Assembly (NCBI GenBank): GCA_001567365.1
Contig: JZEL01000016.1
Span: forward strand, 1-35,609
DNA: 35,609 nt
Source of the DNA: Parcubacteria bacterium OLB19
GTDB taxonomy: Bacteria > Patescibacteriota > Minisyncoccia > Phycocordibacterales > UBA918
Direction of reading: 5' to 3'
Positions 3,670 through 35,484 of the stretch are shown here, piece by piece. Position 1 is the stretch's first letter. Every line of letters starts with the position of its first letter. Below the pieces are notes generated by a model, which worked only from the letters and a program-made list of their open reading frames with translations, was not told the origin of the DNA and did not search any database. The position numbers and the translations under genes were made by a program.

Positions 3670-6168
3670 ATGAAAGATAATATATTCTTACCTCGTTTTA
3701 ATAGTTTGGCTAAGGATAGCATTGGGGAGTGGTTACAAACTTTGGCCAGATTTTTCTTTATTTTAACCTTCTGTTTATTACCTGTGTTTTTTATACCAGG
3801 TGTTGAAATCGGTCTTGGTTTTGCAAAAACATATTTTGTGGTTGTTGGTACTTCTATAACATTAATTTTGCTCAGTCTGACCATTTTGAGACGTGGAGTG
3901 GTTAATTTTCATTTTCCTCTGCCTCTAGTTTTCTTTTTGGTTATTTGTGCTGTTGGCTTCAGCTTCAGCTTTGCTGTCTGGAGATAGACAAGATTCACTT
4001 TGGGGTAATAGTTTAGAGGTTCAAACGGTGGGATTTTTTGTGTTGATGGGTATGGTTATTACCGCCTCTCTAATGATAGGTAAATCAAAATTAGCCATAA
4101 CTAAGCTGTTTATATTTTCTGGTCTCGTTTCCTTGCTTTTGTTGGTAATACAGACACTTCGTTTGTTCTTAGGTCCGGAATTTTTATCTTTTAATCAATT
4201 TTTAGCTAGTACCAGTACGTATGTAGGTAGTTTCAATGATCTGGCTTTGTTTTCTGGTTTGGTTTTGTTGGTCTCAATGATTCTGATTCAGGGAGTAAGT
4301 TTCGGATGGTTGGGTAGAGTCGCCTTGTCTTTAACGACTATTCTGTCTCTTTTGATGTTGGCAATAGTAAATTTTTCCTTCGTTTGGTTGATAATAGGAA
4401 CCCTCAGTCTTTTAATGTTGTTGTATCTTTTATCAAAAGATACATGGTTGCGACTTGAAAATGAGGAAAGAAAAAACACTTCACCTTTTGCTGTAGCTAT
4501 GATTTTGTTGGTAGTGTTAACCTCTTTGGTTTTTGTGGTTGGTGGCAACAATCTCGGCTCGGCTATTAGTAAAATGACAGGCATTAGTTATCTTGAGGTT
4601 AGACCGTCTTTTGATGCAACTATGGATTTAGTGAGAGCAACTTATTCGAATAATGTTCTACTTGGTGTTGGTCCTAATCGTTTTGAAGATGCATGGCGAC
4701 AATACAAAGATCCAATTATAAATGAAACAAATTTCTGGTCGACTGATTTTACGGCTGGTAATGGTTTTATCCCTACGTTGTTTGTCACAACCGGTTTGGC
4801 TGGGGCTCTAGCAATTGTGGTTTTTCTTCTGGCTTTTATCTATGCAGCTATCGTACTCTTATCGCCACTAAACTTGAAGACGGTTGGCATTTGATTGGTG
4901 TTCTTACTTTTGTTTCAGCTTTGTATCTTTGGTTGATTGCTATTGTTTATGTACCGGGTAGTTTTATCATGTTAATGACTGCCTTAATGACTGGTCTGTC
5001 TCTTGCTGTATATAGTGCCAATAATTTGGCAAAGAATTTCAGTATCAATGTGGTTGAGAATCGTCAATATGGTTTATTACTAATCATCTTTGTTTTGTTT
5101 GTTATTGGTTTTGTGACTTTTGCTACTTACAATGTTAGTCGTCAGTTTTTGGCGCAAACAAATTATTTCAAGGTTGTGCAGGCTTTTTCACAAAATAAAC
5201 CTCTAGCAGAGATTGATGTTATGCTTCAAAGTTCAGAACAGCTATTTGGTCAGGATATGTATATAGCAGAACGAGCCAAATTGCGTTTGGATGAATTAAA
5301 TAGGTTGTTGGCCATTAGTGAACCAACAGTCGCTGATCAGCAGACATTTCAATCAGCTTTAATGGAAGGTATCGCTTTGTCTGAGAAGGCGATTAGTGTC
5401 GATTCAACAAACCCGTTAAATTATGCTCTTTTAGCCAGTTTTTATGGTTTGTTAGATCCATCACAATCTAATGAAGTAAAAGATCGTCGCGATGGTGCCA
5501 TGGAGAGAGTTAAGCAATTAGATCCTAAGAACCCTAGTTACTTATTATTGGCAGCACAATTTTCTGCTCGTCATGGTGATTTTGTTTCGGCGAGAAGTCA
5601 TTTAAATGAGGCTATCAAACTCAAGAATAATTATACTGACGCTTTGTTTATGTTGTCTCAAATAGACATTAGTGAAGGTAATACTGATTCGGCAATAAAA
5701 GTAACTAATTCTATGATTGCTATTGAGCCATTTAATCCAACCCGCTATTTCCAATTGGGTATTCTCTTAGCTACTGCAAAAGATTTGGAAGGTGCTGAAA
5801 AAGCCTTTAAAGAAGCAATTCGTCTTGATAATAATTATGCCAATGCGCGTTATTTCTTAGCTCTCACTTACTTGGATATGGATAGAAAAGATGAGGCTTT
5901 GACAGAGCTTAAATTCATAGAAAATACTAATCCTGATAATCAAGGATTAAAAGATCTTATTTTGGCGGTAGAAAGTGGTCAATTTACAAAACCAGAATCA
6001 GGATTTGAAGTTCCGGTAAATGATGGTAGTGTAGTAGAAACAGAAGAAGATGTTACTACAGCCACTGAGGTGCCAGATACAGAATTATTGAAACCTGTAA
6101 ATCAAGTGGAGGGTGGTAATGAAGAACTGAAAAAACAAGAAGATAATTCAAATGAAGTCGTCGAATAG
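3670..6168 (+). CDS. O-antigen ligase-like membrane protein with TPR tail, two frameshifts
   Basis: About 830 residues when joined. The N-terminal two thirds is a run of roughly 12 hydrophobic helices with a loop carrying SGDRQDSLWGNSLEVQT and, further on, LLGVGPNRFEDAWRQYKDP, the layout of Wzy/WaaL-type polysaccharide polymerase or ligase proteins. The C-terminal third (from about residue 540) holds tetratricopeptide repeats (for example FQLGILLATAKDLEGAEKAFKEAI, DNNYANARYFLALTYLDMDR) and ends in an acidic low-complexity tail. The frame breaks near 3944-3946 (one extra T; joined as VIVLLASASALLSGDR) and again between about 4834 and 4856 (one base missing), after which the frame reads YRTLIATKLEDGWHLIGVL. 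It precedes murJ by 8 nt, consistent with a cell-envelope polysaccharide operon. Substrate unknown. Confidence 0.75.
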
Positions 6169-31762: not shown

Positions 31763-33213
31763 ATGAAAATAAACACTGACAAAAATCCATATTGGACAAT
31801 TTGTCTCTCGTGTCATGGACAGGGTAAAATCATGAGAGGACCTTCTAGAAAAAGACGGCGCCTTTTTGAAAATGAACTACACGAATATGAAATTAGCAGT
31901 GATGCAAGTGTGGCTCCAAAACCTCCTACTGCAAATATGGATGTGTGTCCCTTGTGTGTCGGCTCTGGATTACAGAGCGCTGAAAAAGCTGTACCAGTAG
32001 ATTTTAAGAAATATCCGAATGTGGCAATTATTGGTGGTGGTATCGGCGGAGTGGCTTTAGCGGTAGCTTGTTTACATAGAGGAATTCCTTTTACTTTGTA
32101 TGAGCGAGACGAAAGTTTCAGCTCACGTTCTCAAGGATATGGATTAACCCTGCAACAAGCCAGTAAAGCGGTGGAGGGTTTGGGAATTTTTTCACTAGAG
32201 GGTGGACTTACTTCGACTCGACACGTGGTTTATAATCCAGAGGGAAAAATTATTGGTGAATGGGGACTCCGAAAGTGGGGAAAAACTTTTTTGGAACAAA
32301 CCTCGAGACGGAAAAATGTGCATATCGCTAGGCAGACTTTTCGCTCATTACTCTTACAGCAATTGGGCAATAGCGAGCCGTTGCGGTGGGGACATAAATT
32401 GACAAAACTCTCAAGTAATCAAAATGGCACTGTCGATTTGACTTTCCAAGTCGGAGAAAAACAAGAAAACGCACAGGCTGATTTGGTGGTAGGAGCCGAC
32501 GGTATTAGGAGTGTAGTCCGTGAATTATTAATTGGCGAACAAAAAAGTCCACTGCAATATTTGGGTTGTATTGTCGTACTGGGTATTTGTCCGCTGAAAG
32601 CCCTGGGTGATACTGCTAGCCTCTACTTGATTCGGCTACGGTGTTTCAAACAGTAAATGGCCATGAAAGGATATATATGATGCCTTACGATGCAAAGACG
32701 ATTATGTGGCAATTCAGTTTCCCTTTGTCTCTGAGTGAAGCTAAGGAATTAAGCGCGAAGGGAGCAAAAGCGATGAAGGAAGAAGCTTGTCGACGTCTTA
32801 AGTGGCATGATCCTATACCGCAGATTTTAGCGGCCACTTTAGAAGCCGATATCACTGGCTATCCAGTTTATGACAGAAAATTATTTGACCCAATCTTACT
32901 GCAAGAAAAAGAAAATATAACTTTGATCGGAGATGCAGCCCATCCAATGAGTCCTTTTAAAGGGCAGGGTGCCAATCAAGCTATTCTTGATGCGCTAGCT
33001 CTAGCTAGAAAAATTTCCGTGACTTGTGATAAAAATCCCAATTGGCGAGAAAGCGGAGTCAGAAAAAGTATACTGAATAAATTTGAAGAAGAAATGGCCA
33101 AACGCTCAGCTACTAAAGTGATAGATTCAGCCAAAGCTGCACAACTACTTCATTCCAAAGTGGTGCTTCATGAGGGGAATGAGCCTAGGGGGAGGTGGTT
33201 GAGTGGTTTTTAA
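31763..33213 (+). CDS. FAD-dependent monooxygenase with N-terminal zinc-ribbon-like domain, one frameshift
   Basis: About 484 residues when joined. Residues 1-75 carry two CxxCxGxG-type knuckles (CLSCHGQGK and CPLCVGSG), like half of a DnaJ zinc finger. A group A flavoprotein hydroxylase follows: Rossmann GGGIGGVALA (about 93-102), YERDE, the DG motif as VVGADGIRSVVR, and the FAD-ribityl motif LIGDAAHPMSPFKGQGANQAILDA. The frame is broken between about 32610 and 32628, where one base is missing; after it the frame reads PLLDSATVFQTVNGHERIYM. The substrate is unknown. The fusion is unusual and the gene sits at the edge of the remnant-rich right end, so recent acquisition is possible. Confidence 0.8.
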
Positions 33214-33223
33214 TCAGGATTAA

Positions 33224-33352
33224 TTTATAGAAAAATTTAAATTAATCTCGATTTGTGACCCATTAGCGTGGCTTTCAGAACTTTCAAAACAGAGAGAATA
33301 TATAAAGTCTTCAATTTCTGCACTTTCAGAGTTTGCTCGCCAAGTAAGGTAA
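33224..33352 (+). pseudogene. C-terminal gene remnant, 42 codons
   Basis: Open stretch ending at TAA 33350-33352 with coding-like sequence (CDPLAWLSELSKQREYIKSS, ISALSEFARQVR) but no start codon. Probably the tail of a lost gene, convergent with the HEPN-like gene 8 bp away. Confidence 0.3.
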
Positions 33353-33360
33353 TAACACCT

Positions 33361-33756
33361 TTAGTTAGCTAGTATCGTAACAATCCTATCGGCATCGATA
33401 ATTGCACTTTGCAAAAGTGAGGGCGTGTTTTTTACGTCACTGTCGTAATCACATTCCTTCCTAGCTTTGTGTAATCTGAAAAGTATCTGTCTTATTTCTT
33501 GATGGTCAACATTACCAAACCTCTTACGGTATTCTTCTCTCAAGTTTGCGTGAAATTGGTTACCACCCTCATTCTTTTTAGGTGTATAACCAAAATTGGC
33601 AATCGCATAGTCTTCAGCTATATGGTAGACACTGTAATAAGCCCTACTTACTCCAGACCTTTGTTTTGCCTCAATTTCTGTACTTGCGACCTGCCCAGTG
33701 GTTTCTGCCTGAAGTTCCTTCGCAAGTGATAAGTAACCATTCCAATCAAATGCCAT
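33361..33756 (-). CDS. HEPN-like helical protein (last gene of TIGR04255 operon)
   Basis: 131 residues, all helical. RSGVSRAYYSVYHIAEDYA (about residues 34-52) and LHKARKECDYD (about 94-104) match the pattern of the HEPN / UPF0332-type family that often pairs with nucleotidyltransferases or other partners. The canonical Rx4-6H catalytic pair is not obvious (the motif is R-K-E-C-D-Y-D), so it may be a non-catalytic or differently acting member. It starts 3 bp after the end of the gene before it, in a tight three-gene operon. Confidence 0.6.
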   Translation of the reverse strand: MAFDWNGYLSLAKELQAETTGQVASTEIEAKQRSGVSRAYYSVYHIAEDYAIANFGYTPKKNEGGNQFHANLREEYRKRFGNVDHQEIRQILFRLHKARKECDYDSDVKNTPSLLQSAIIDADRIVTILAN

Positions 33757-33759
33757 ATG

Positions 33760-34230
33760 CTATACAAACTTTAGGGTAAAGTTTATTTTCATCAAATCAG
33801 CCTCTCCAGAGGAAAGCACCCATTCTCTATTGAGTAAACTCAACTGTCTAGTGGCATCTTCTGCAGATAGTGCGGTCTGTATTTCAAGATACATTTCAGG
33901 TGCTTCTACTGTGTCAGGGTCACTGAACATTCCGATTTCCATTTCAGTATCACCAAAATACTCTGCAACTTTACTTGGTACTTCATAGAGGTGAGTAACT
34001 ACACCCAAGTTGTTCGCTAGGTAATCCTCGAGTAAAAGTCTGTCATATATAGTAACATTCTTCGATTGTAAAACTGAAATGGCTGTATCAATGCGTGTTG
34101 AAAGAGATTTGCTACTTGGTGCAAAAGTACTTGTCAGCGACCTGTTCCATACACGCTCAAATACCGAAGGGGCTTGGATGCTCTCCAACTGGATATAGTT
34201 TGTGTAATTGTCCATTGCAAGTGTTGTCAT
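33760..34230 (-). CDS. Hypothetical protein (middle gene of TIGR04255 operon)
   Basis: 156 residues, soluble, no signal peptide. An N-terminal stretch (ERVWNRSLTSTFAPSSKSLS) is followed by a helical segment (TRIDTAISVLQSKNVTIYDR), then an alternating beta-rich C-terminal half ending in EADLMKINFTLKFV, suggestive of a beta sandwich or barrel. No family recognised. Spacing is 3 bp to each neighbour, so it is almost certainly a functional unit with the TIGR04255 protein and the HEPN-like protein. Confidence 0.6.
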   Translation of the reverse strand: MTTLAMDNYTNYIQLESIQAPSVFERVWNRSLTSTFAPSSKSLSTRIDTAISVLQSKNVTIYDRLLLEDYLANNLGVVTHLYEVPSKVAEYFGDTEMEIGMFSDPDTVEAPEMYLEIQTALSAEDATRQLSLLNREWVLSSGEADLMKINFTLKFV

Positions 34231-34233
34231 AGT

Positions 34234-34983
34234 TTATTTATCAAAAACCGCCTTGGCTTTTTCAGTTAGCACACCCTCAAATACTGTCTCAAGATTTGTA
34301 TGCGCTTCTCCAAGCCATTGGTCGAGGTCTGCAAGAGGAATAACAGGCTTTGCAAGAAAGTAATCTAAATCAAGGATGAAAGCCCTTATATCTTGGTTTC
34401 CTTGTTGCTTATCAGCAAACTGTACTTTTATAGCATCACGACTTTCGTTTTGTTCATAAAGTGCTCCAAGAAATATAGACTGACGGCTGTTTTCTTCGAG
34501 AGAAGGGACAGATGCCTGAAGAGCAAAGTAATCAGAAAAATTGAAACCTGAAGAAGGTAAAATGATTTCGTTTATATAACGAATACCTATTCTTGCGACA
34601 CCTGTAGGATGGAAATGGGTTGTATAAGCATTATGGACAAGCTGTATAAGAGGTAAGAAATCAGTCCACGATTTATATGGTTTTATTCTATGTATGGAAA
34701 CTCGTCCGCCATCTAGTTGTACAGAATACTTCTCATCATCAGAGAAGTATTGCTCAAACTCATAGTAATCCTGATTTATGTTCTTTTTGTTTTCTTCTGG
34801 AGTTTTTTCTGCGTCAATATGAAACTCAAGTTTATTCATCTTGCCTTTCTTTTGTTTTGGAAATGAGGTTTGGATAGCAGTATAAAAAGCACCGATATTT
34901 TCAGTAGATAAATCTCCCTTCACAACAAAACGAAACTCACAAACCGCCTCAAGTAGAGGTGGGTTTTTGTATGTTTTTGACAT
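34234..34983 (-). CDS. TIGR04255-family protein
   Basis: 249 residues. The N-terminal NPPLLEAVCEFRF and the central GVARIGIRYINEIILP are the two hallmarks of the TIGR04255 family, described as sporadically distributed and of unknown function, usually beside a small variable gene. Other conserved bits are DYYEFEQYFSDDEKYSVQLD and FILDLDYFLAKP. The frame is intact. An extended -10 TGGTATTAT is upstream, with AGGTAAGG before the ATG. It heads a compact operon with an unknown protein and a HEPN-like protein, lying between gene remnants, which points to mobile or defence-type cargo. Confidence 0.8.
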   Translation of the reverse strand: MSKTYKNPPLLEAVCEFRFVVKGDLSTENIGAFYTAIQTSFPKQKKGKMNKLEFHIDAEKTPEENKKNINQDYYEFEQYFSDDEKYSVQLDGGRVSIHRIKPYKSWTDFLPLIQLVHNAYTTHFHPTGVARIGIRYINEIILPSSGFNFSDYFALQASVPSLEENSRQSIFLGALYEQNESRDAIKVQFADKQQGNQDIRAFILDLDYFLAKPVIPLADLDQWLGEAHTNLETVFEGVLTEKAKAVFDK

Positions 34984-34996
34984 AACCTTACCTATG

Positions 34997-35005
34997 ATAA
35001 TACCA
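34997..35005 (-). promoter_or_regulatory. Extended -10 promoter of the TIGR04255 operon
   Basis: TGGTATTAT on the minus strand, 13 nt before the ATG at 34983, with a purine-rich AGGTAAGG between. Unlike the leaderless genes, this one has a Shine-Dalgarno-like leader. Confidence 0.5.
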
Positions 35006-35014
35006 CGATTTTCT

Positions 35015-35175
35015 TTATTTTCTAGGCTTTTCTACACCCGACACTGTACTTATGTATAAGTCTGGATTTTGCTTCCTATCTTCTTTTAGTAGCCACTCAA
35101 AAACTGCAACAATGCGGTCACAACATATACTTGAAACTTGAAATTTTTAGAGTCATCGGATTTGGCATTTTGGAA
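35015..35175 (-). pseudogene. C-terminal gene fragment, frame-broken
   Basis: The two reading frames together look coding: NAKSDDSKNFKFQVYVV in one frame, continued near 35120 by CDRIVAVFEWLLKEDRKQNP and DLYISTVSGVEKPRK to the stop at 35015. No start codon; family not recognised. Confidence 0.35.
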
Positions 35176-35181
35176 CTCTAT

Positions 35182-35484
35182 TTATTTCCATCCATGAAAA
35201 ATAGTTTTTATTCGAAGAGTAAACAGGTTTTTTAGAAAATACAAAATGGTATCCACAATTTTTAACCTCCACTTCCGATTATCAACACAGGTTATTTTTA
35301 AGTCTTTGATCTTAAATCCTTTCTTCTCGGCATAGAGAAGTAATGCCGTATCAAAGAACCAACCCCTATAGTTTTTTACATTCTCAGAAATACGGGCGAA
35401 TGCCTTTTTTGTTATTGATTTGTGTCCAGCTTGAGCATCAGTGAACTGGTGTACAAAAAGTAAGTATATGAGTATATTCCAAAA
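35182..35484 (-). pseudogene. Truncated family 2 glycosyltransferase (C-terminal part)
   Basis: About 100 codons with no start. It reads WNILIYLLFVHQFTDAQAGH, KSITKKAFARISENVKNYRG, WFFDTALLLYAEKKGFKIKD and ends TIFHGWK. The DxQxGxK-type segment (TDAQAGHK) and the later WFFDTALLLYAEKKG block are those of GT2 enzymes of the dolichyl-phosphate-mannose-synthase/polyprenol glycosyltransferase group. The N-terminal nucleotide-sugar half is missing; a TAA and a strong terminator hairpin stand where it should continue. Confidence 0.65.

Follow-up and report, generated by a model that had tools for sequence, protein, structure and literature searches.

The question raised by this locus is what three closely packed genes, taken in a sequence-only reading for a toxin-antitoxin or defence module of undescribed type, do together in Parcubacteria bacterium OLB19. 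The window, that is the whole 35,609-nucleotide stretch that was analysed, is the entire contig C16, and the right flank of the trio therefore ends at the contig end. All three genes lie on the minus strand in the order T-M-H: T (34234–34983, 249 amino acids) encodes a TIGR04255 family protein, M (33760–34230, 156 amino acids) a middle protein without a named family, and H (33361–33756, 131 amino acids) a HEPN protein predicted to be a metal-independent RNase. Both intergenic gaps are 3 bp, and the coordinates, strand and spacing read earlier from the sequence are exact.

The operon had also been placed under one promoter. An extended −10 promoter-like site is present on the minus strand at 34997–35024, 14 bp before the start of T, and matches the consensus at 9 of 12 positions. 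Five such sites were observed in the region against a mean of 6.8 in shuffled sequences, and since they are no commoner than in the shuffles, the site before T is a candidate promoter at most. Frames without an intact gene flank the trio on both sides (33223–33360 and about 35100–35470), in line with the truncated genes expected there, although the GT2 identity given to one of them found no confirmation in family searches. The G+C content of the trio (38.5%) does not differ from that of the contig (37.7%).

To the left of the trio, a gene for an FAD-dependent monooxygenase (31763–33213) is split over two frames, its copy in a congener being intact with 555 amino acids; the split gene is either a pseudogene or the product of an assembly error. 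Elsewhere in the window, at 65–1227 and 3670–4894, adjacent frames resemble single frameshift-broken genes, judged by eye to encode an MgtE-like transporter and a membrane protein, which suggests indel errors in the contig. A 39-bp stretch at 33252–33289 is 95% identical to a stretch of congener G291 (L081:7185–7223), the flanking gene being only about 65% identical, and represents either a conserved remnant or a small element.

The same three families occur in the same order in 18 loci besides the window: on a Thermus plasmid, in Planctomycetota, in Chloroflexota, in the WOR-3/Stahlbacteria phylum and in one archaeon. In full, these loci belong to Thermus brockianus plasmid pTB1, Thermogutta, Methanomassiliicoccus, WOR-3, Stahlbacteria, Thermoflexales, seven further Chloroflexota and five further members of the WOR-3 phylum, with M homologues between T and H. 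Reading the neighbourhoods of TIGR04255 homologues, which had been proposed as the check, thus recovers the trio. The opposite outcome, an unconserved trio or an H of unrelated function, did not materialize: the trio recurs across phyla of bacteria and in one archaeon, and H has the alternative RNase residues of a known HEPN defence effector. On pTB1, T and H are both matched by tblastn 0.6 kb apart, with a diverged M gene in between. The Thermus M and the proteins that precede a HEPN in Gloeothece match mutually (E about 1e-6), and the M of the window has a weak match (0.003) to one of the Gloeothece proteins.

A scan with T of the genomes of 84,980 species found five close relatives, and all five have the trio. 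T-M-H is directly visible at four of them, in the archaeon Methanomassiliicoccus, WOR-3, Stahlbacteria and Thermoflexales; the Thermogutta trio is split, the end of the T-bearing contig overlapping the start of the M-H-bearing contig of the same genome. A profile of M was positive in 17 of 301 Chloroflexota genomes, eight with T-M-H (including Thermoflexales), six with M-H but without T, and three with a weak match or without H. In the WOR-3/Stahlbacteria phylum 12 of 147 genomes were positive, seven of them with T-M-H, including two already known. Across 16 trio loci, the window included, the normalised distances of the three proteins correlate with each other (Mantel r 0.66, 0.72 and 0.71; p 5e-5), as expected if all three genes travel together.

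The trio is nearly absent from the group of the host: T was found in two of the phylum's 380 genomes (in the second one in another context), M in one of 287, and H in one of 38 genomes of the genus. The trio was therefore most likely acquired horizontally. The flanking monooxygenase counts as chromosomal for the genus to the extent that it is present in one congener with 64% identity. No clean empty site was found, and G291, in which that gene is intact, shares no gene order with the window beyond it. A single-sequence search with M of plasmids and viral contigs gave no match, nor did a tblastn search with H of phage records. One viral contig (L025:1114–3562) carries an unnamed 116-amino-acid protein, an M-H pair and then a protein with HEPN/RES N-terminal and RES domains, possibly a double toxin locus in a virus or prophage. 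In other viral contigs (L046–L060), related HEPN genes of many prophages lie between tail genes directly 3′ of a conserved 257-amino-acid partner of no known family, likely as a separate two-gene module.

The score of H as a single protein against PF05168 (20 bits) is just under the gathering score of 22, and H matches phrog_5176 at 5e-11. The profile of its family (A4) matches the solved HEPN structures 9xbd (E 3.6e-8) and 9xbc (E 3.3e-7) and, weakly and through its N-terminal part, the HEPN of retron-Kva2 (36ht, E 0.0013). The third gene is thus HEPN-like, as had been read. The classical R-X4-6-H motif is missing from H, its place in the alignment being taken by R-[NK]-x-[CA]-D-Y, and the HepT motif RX4HXY is absent as well (alignment A7). 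Residues E29, R33, R38, Y40, H69, R99, D103 and Y104 are invariant in 14 of 14 aligned sequences.

The HEPN of retron-Kva2 likewise has no RX4-6H motif; its site consists of H64, R122 and Y40-42, and the substitutions H64A, R122A and Y40-42A abolish defence (PMC13405049). The effector leads to tRNA cleavage (PMC13405049). In H, the predicted catalytic histidine outside RX4-6H, H69 (minus-strand codon 33550–33552), is the counterpart of H64, and the predicted catalytic arginine of R-[NK]-x-[CA]-D-Y, R99 (33460–33462, minus strand), that of R122. Tyrosines Y40-Y41 (33634–33639, minus strand), of which Y41 is nearly invariant, belong to the motif R38-A-Y-Y and are equivalent to Y40-42, while D103-Y104 (33445–33450, minus strand) stand at the place of the usual HEPN histidine. 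Anantharaman et al. predicted that HEPNs of this group with an aspartate for that histidine use a second conserved histidine (PMC3710099), and H has both the aspartate D103 and the distant H69. As all of the alternative His, Arg and Tyr residues are carried by H, an RNase is its likely activity, and comparison of the sequences makes H a likely HEPN ribonuclease with an alternative active site. Between 9xbd and 9xbc, the closest solved relatives, the R-N-x-x-D-Y motif differs by a Tyr-to-Phe change, from which it seems that someone tested that tyrosine.

M gave no match above cut-off in family, PADLOC and phrog searches. Residues 1–38 (34117–34230, minus strand) form a variable, poorly predicted N-terminal extension (pLDDT under 50). 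The conserved core, residues 39–156 (33763–34116, minus strand; pLDDT about 80–92, alignment A2), is modelled from residue 39 on as helices, a two-stranded hairpin around a DP[DE] motif, a long helix and a last strand. Foldseek found no match to the model under E 0.001, and the fold candidates returned by VIA-align, the ribosomal S3-type KH domain, PrgH and 1ylq, were tied at Z 5–6 and are not trusted.

M accompanies H both in loci that have T and in loci that lack it. One Chloroflexota locus (L072) has M fused to an Xre-type HTH domain (PF01381, 50 bits) directly before H, which by analogy is the build of many antitoxins. Given this fusion and the M-H pairs that lack T, M is more likely than T to be the direct antitoxin, and T would be an additional layer. 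Loci with T tend to have an M with a longer N-terminal extension than loci lacking it (median 77 versus 36.5 residues, one-sided p 0.014, 19 versus 8 loci), a weak statistic that comes from small numbers and depends on start-codon calls. In another locus (L071:1450–3234) the end of a long frame directly before H is M-like, and the first part of this frame has a sub-threshold similarity (18 bits) to MmeI-type DNA methyltransferases.

The assignment of the first gene to TIGR04255 is firm: T scores 118 bits against the NCBIfam model TIGR04255.1 (cut-off 30), over model positions 2–248 of 252. The NCBI model gives no function for this family, no paper naming TIGR04255 was found in the literature searched, and PADLOC has no model for T. 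The AlphaFold2 model of T (pLDDT 78, pTM 0.76) has in its first half (residues 10–124; 34612–34956, minus strand) a strand, a helix, four strands and a helix, which is the order of a TBP repeat as compared by eye, and a similar order of elements in its second half (residues 128–238; 34270–34602, minus strand). TBP is the top Foldseek match (E 7e-4), and viral TBP/TFIID proteins are matched too. T is thus predicted from the model to be a duplicated TBP-like fold, which might possibly bind nucleic acid. VIA-align returned phosphagen kinases with Z up to 9.2 and an rmsd of about 4 over some 180–190 residues (4.2 over 194 aligned residues); T as a kinase was not accepted, since few of its arginines are conserved and TBP proteins head the Foldseek lists.

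TIGR04255 proteins had been described as usually accompanied by a small partner, which turns out to be too simple. The family occurs in 30 of 301 Chloroflexota genomes, where its genes are mostly the first of three; only eight of the 30 loci read have M and H, and most others head operons with other pairs. The types seen (L082–L111) include an HTH middle protein with a 'QDCD' protein, a small middle protein with an 'SCDLE' protein related to 'QDCD', and a 'DWDSYGA' middle protein with an 'RRI' protein that is PDC-M32-like. Further types have a different middle protein with a HEPN and, in one case, a PIN-like third gene (named by eye only).

For most protein families of these other operons, neither Pfam nor NCBIfam has a name. 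The two downstream proteins of L102 match the PADLOC phage-defence candidates PDC-M32A and PDC-M32B (1e-8 and 2e-6), and the component models of PDC-M32 gave no match to M and H of the window. On the tree of T, the M-H label needs 4 changes versus 14.0 in shuffles, so that the pairing of T with M-H is stable, with few exchanges. It is tentatively proposed that TIGR04255 might be the common TBP-like sensor of new modular three-gene immune systems, in which a variable middle adaptor or antitoxin is combined with an exchangeable effector (HEPN RNase, PDC-M32-like, 'QDCD' or PIN-like).

Neighbouring defence genes were looked at in a few loci, one at a time, and stand as single observations rather than as an enrichment over a genome-wide background rate. 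In Thermogutta, one strand carries the trio preceded by an N6/N4 DNA methyltransferase gene and followed by that of a BPTD_3080 restriction endonuclease (L010:943–4741, L023:1–2025), with T-M-H enclosed by a restriction-modification operon. The Stahlbacteria trio has a divergent gene for an Avs2-like protein (328 bits) upstream. A type ISP restriction C-terminal domain adjoins H in L069, a type I S subunit lies upstream of the M-H pair in L063, and a DNA methylase, VapBC, Argonaute and Cas6 lie within 8 kb of the Thermus copy. Beside the copy in the window no defence gene was seen within the contig, whose end cuts the right side. A gene for a 119-amino-acid protein lies immediately upstream of the trio in Stahlbacteria (L013:3050–3860), between the copies of an imperfect direct repeat of about 100 bp; together they perhaps make up a mobile element.

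The trio is probably a mobile tripartite module of the toxin-antitoxin or abortive-infection-like kind, composed of the HEPN protein H, a restraining M and a sensor T. The toxin-antitoxin or defence reading made from the sequence is thereby upheld in part: the conserved trio, the residues of H and the defence neighbours make it the best-supported one. H would be a dimeric HEPN ribonuclease with His69 and Arg99 in its site and Y40-Y41 as substrate tyrosines, and its RNA cleavage would bring growth to a halt, the target most likely being tRNA by analogy with retron-Kva2. M would be the immediate partner that restrains H, an antitoxin role suggested by its constant place next to H and by the natural Xre HTH fusion rather than proved by a fold or family match. 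T may be a sensor or third regulator, a part suggested by its predicted fold, and might bind nucleic acid or a phage protein; more speculatively still, it could act by way of the variable region at the N-terminus of M. H would then be set free once an attack alters T or M. Toxicity of H, its neutralisation by M or T, and protection against phage would all follow from this scheme.

The HEPN of the type IX retron (retron-Kva2) resembles H in the missing RX4-6H motif, in a catalytic His and Arg that come from distant parts of the chain, and in the motifs R-x-Y-Y and R-x-x-x-D-Y (PMC13405049). It is also held inside a multi-protein complex (PMC13405049), which is counted as a likeness to the trio. 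Its partners are a reverse transcriptase, msDNA and a winged-helix protein, whereas those in the window are TIGR04255 and M, and no sequence relation between the two sets was found. The reverse transcriptase and winged-helix genes of type IX retrons are absent here, the two partner genes of H matching TIGR04255 and no family.

The HEPN/MNT systems (type VII) are similar to the trio in that a small HEPN is encoded directly beside a small partner, in their mobility, and in their occurrence in both bacteria and archaea. They differ in that M has no MNT match, RX4HXY is replaced in H and a third gene, T, is present. In TAC systems, a third component is common to different toxin-antitoxin cassettes. 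TAC, including CmdTAC, shares with the trio the number of three genes, and T likewise heads several different cassettes, but T is a TIGR04255 protein, predicted to be TBP-like, with no SecB sequence match (the folds listed by the searches being TBP and phosphagen kinases), and the cassettes differ. PADLOC PDC-M32 is related through the two downstream genes of the T-headed L102, which match PDC-M32A/B as M and H of the window do not. The parts are of known kinds, a HEPN effector and three-part toxin-antitoxin logic, while the combination and the head protein T are undescribed in the literature and databases searched.

The same observations can be read in other ways. The trio might serve only as an addiction module of mobile DNA and have no part in phage defence: M would neutralise H, T would assist M in the manner of a TAC chaperone, and plasmids or islands would be stabilised. 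The copies on plasmids, the M-H pairs without T, the HTH-fused M and the very scattered distribution would fit, and the longer M extension in the presence of T recalls the extension that makes TAC antitoxins chaperone-dependent (PMC6377645). This explanation is nevertheless unlikely, since copies lie within a restriction-modification operon or next to Avs2-like, type ISP and type I genes, another T-headed operon type matches a phage-defence candidate, and the extension statistics are weak and start-codon dependent.

The other two alternatives concern single proteins. It appears improbable that H is a HEPN subunit without RNase activity that binds RNA or nucleotides, the trio then forming a complex with a role in regulation or nucleic-acid processing: the classical motif is replaced by R-[NK]-x-[CA]-D-Y and non-catalytic HEPN proteins are discussed by Anantharaman et al. 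(PMC3710099), but the invariant H69 and R99 match residues required in retron-Kva2. It is very improbable that M is a diverged minimal nucleotidyltransferase, which would make M-H a type VII (HEPN/MNT) pair with M modifying Y104 of H. M does occupy the place of the MNT beside a HEPN, Y104 is invariant, and the tied structural matches include the putative nucleotidyltransferase 1ylq (Z 5.7, rmsd 3.1, 71 aligned residues). Unrelated ribosomal proteins, however, reach the same Z, no MNT family match was found, no G-S...D-x-D motif is visible in the M alignment, and H lacks the HepT motif RX4HXY.

Added defence genes are costly to Patescibacteria with small genomes, and to our knowledge few defence genes are known in members with genomes as small as the 0.9 Mb of the present host, in which this module sits. 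If the tripartite module is what the trio represents, a function would be provided for TIGR04255, a curated family without a named role, and a HEPN effector with the alternative active site would be found outside retrons. T heads several gene pairs, so its trigger would bear on a whole group of three-gene operons.
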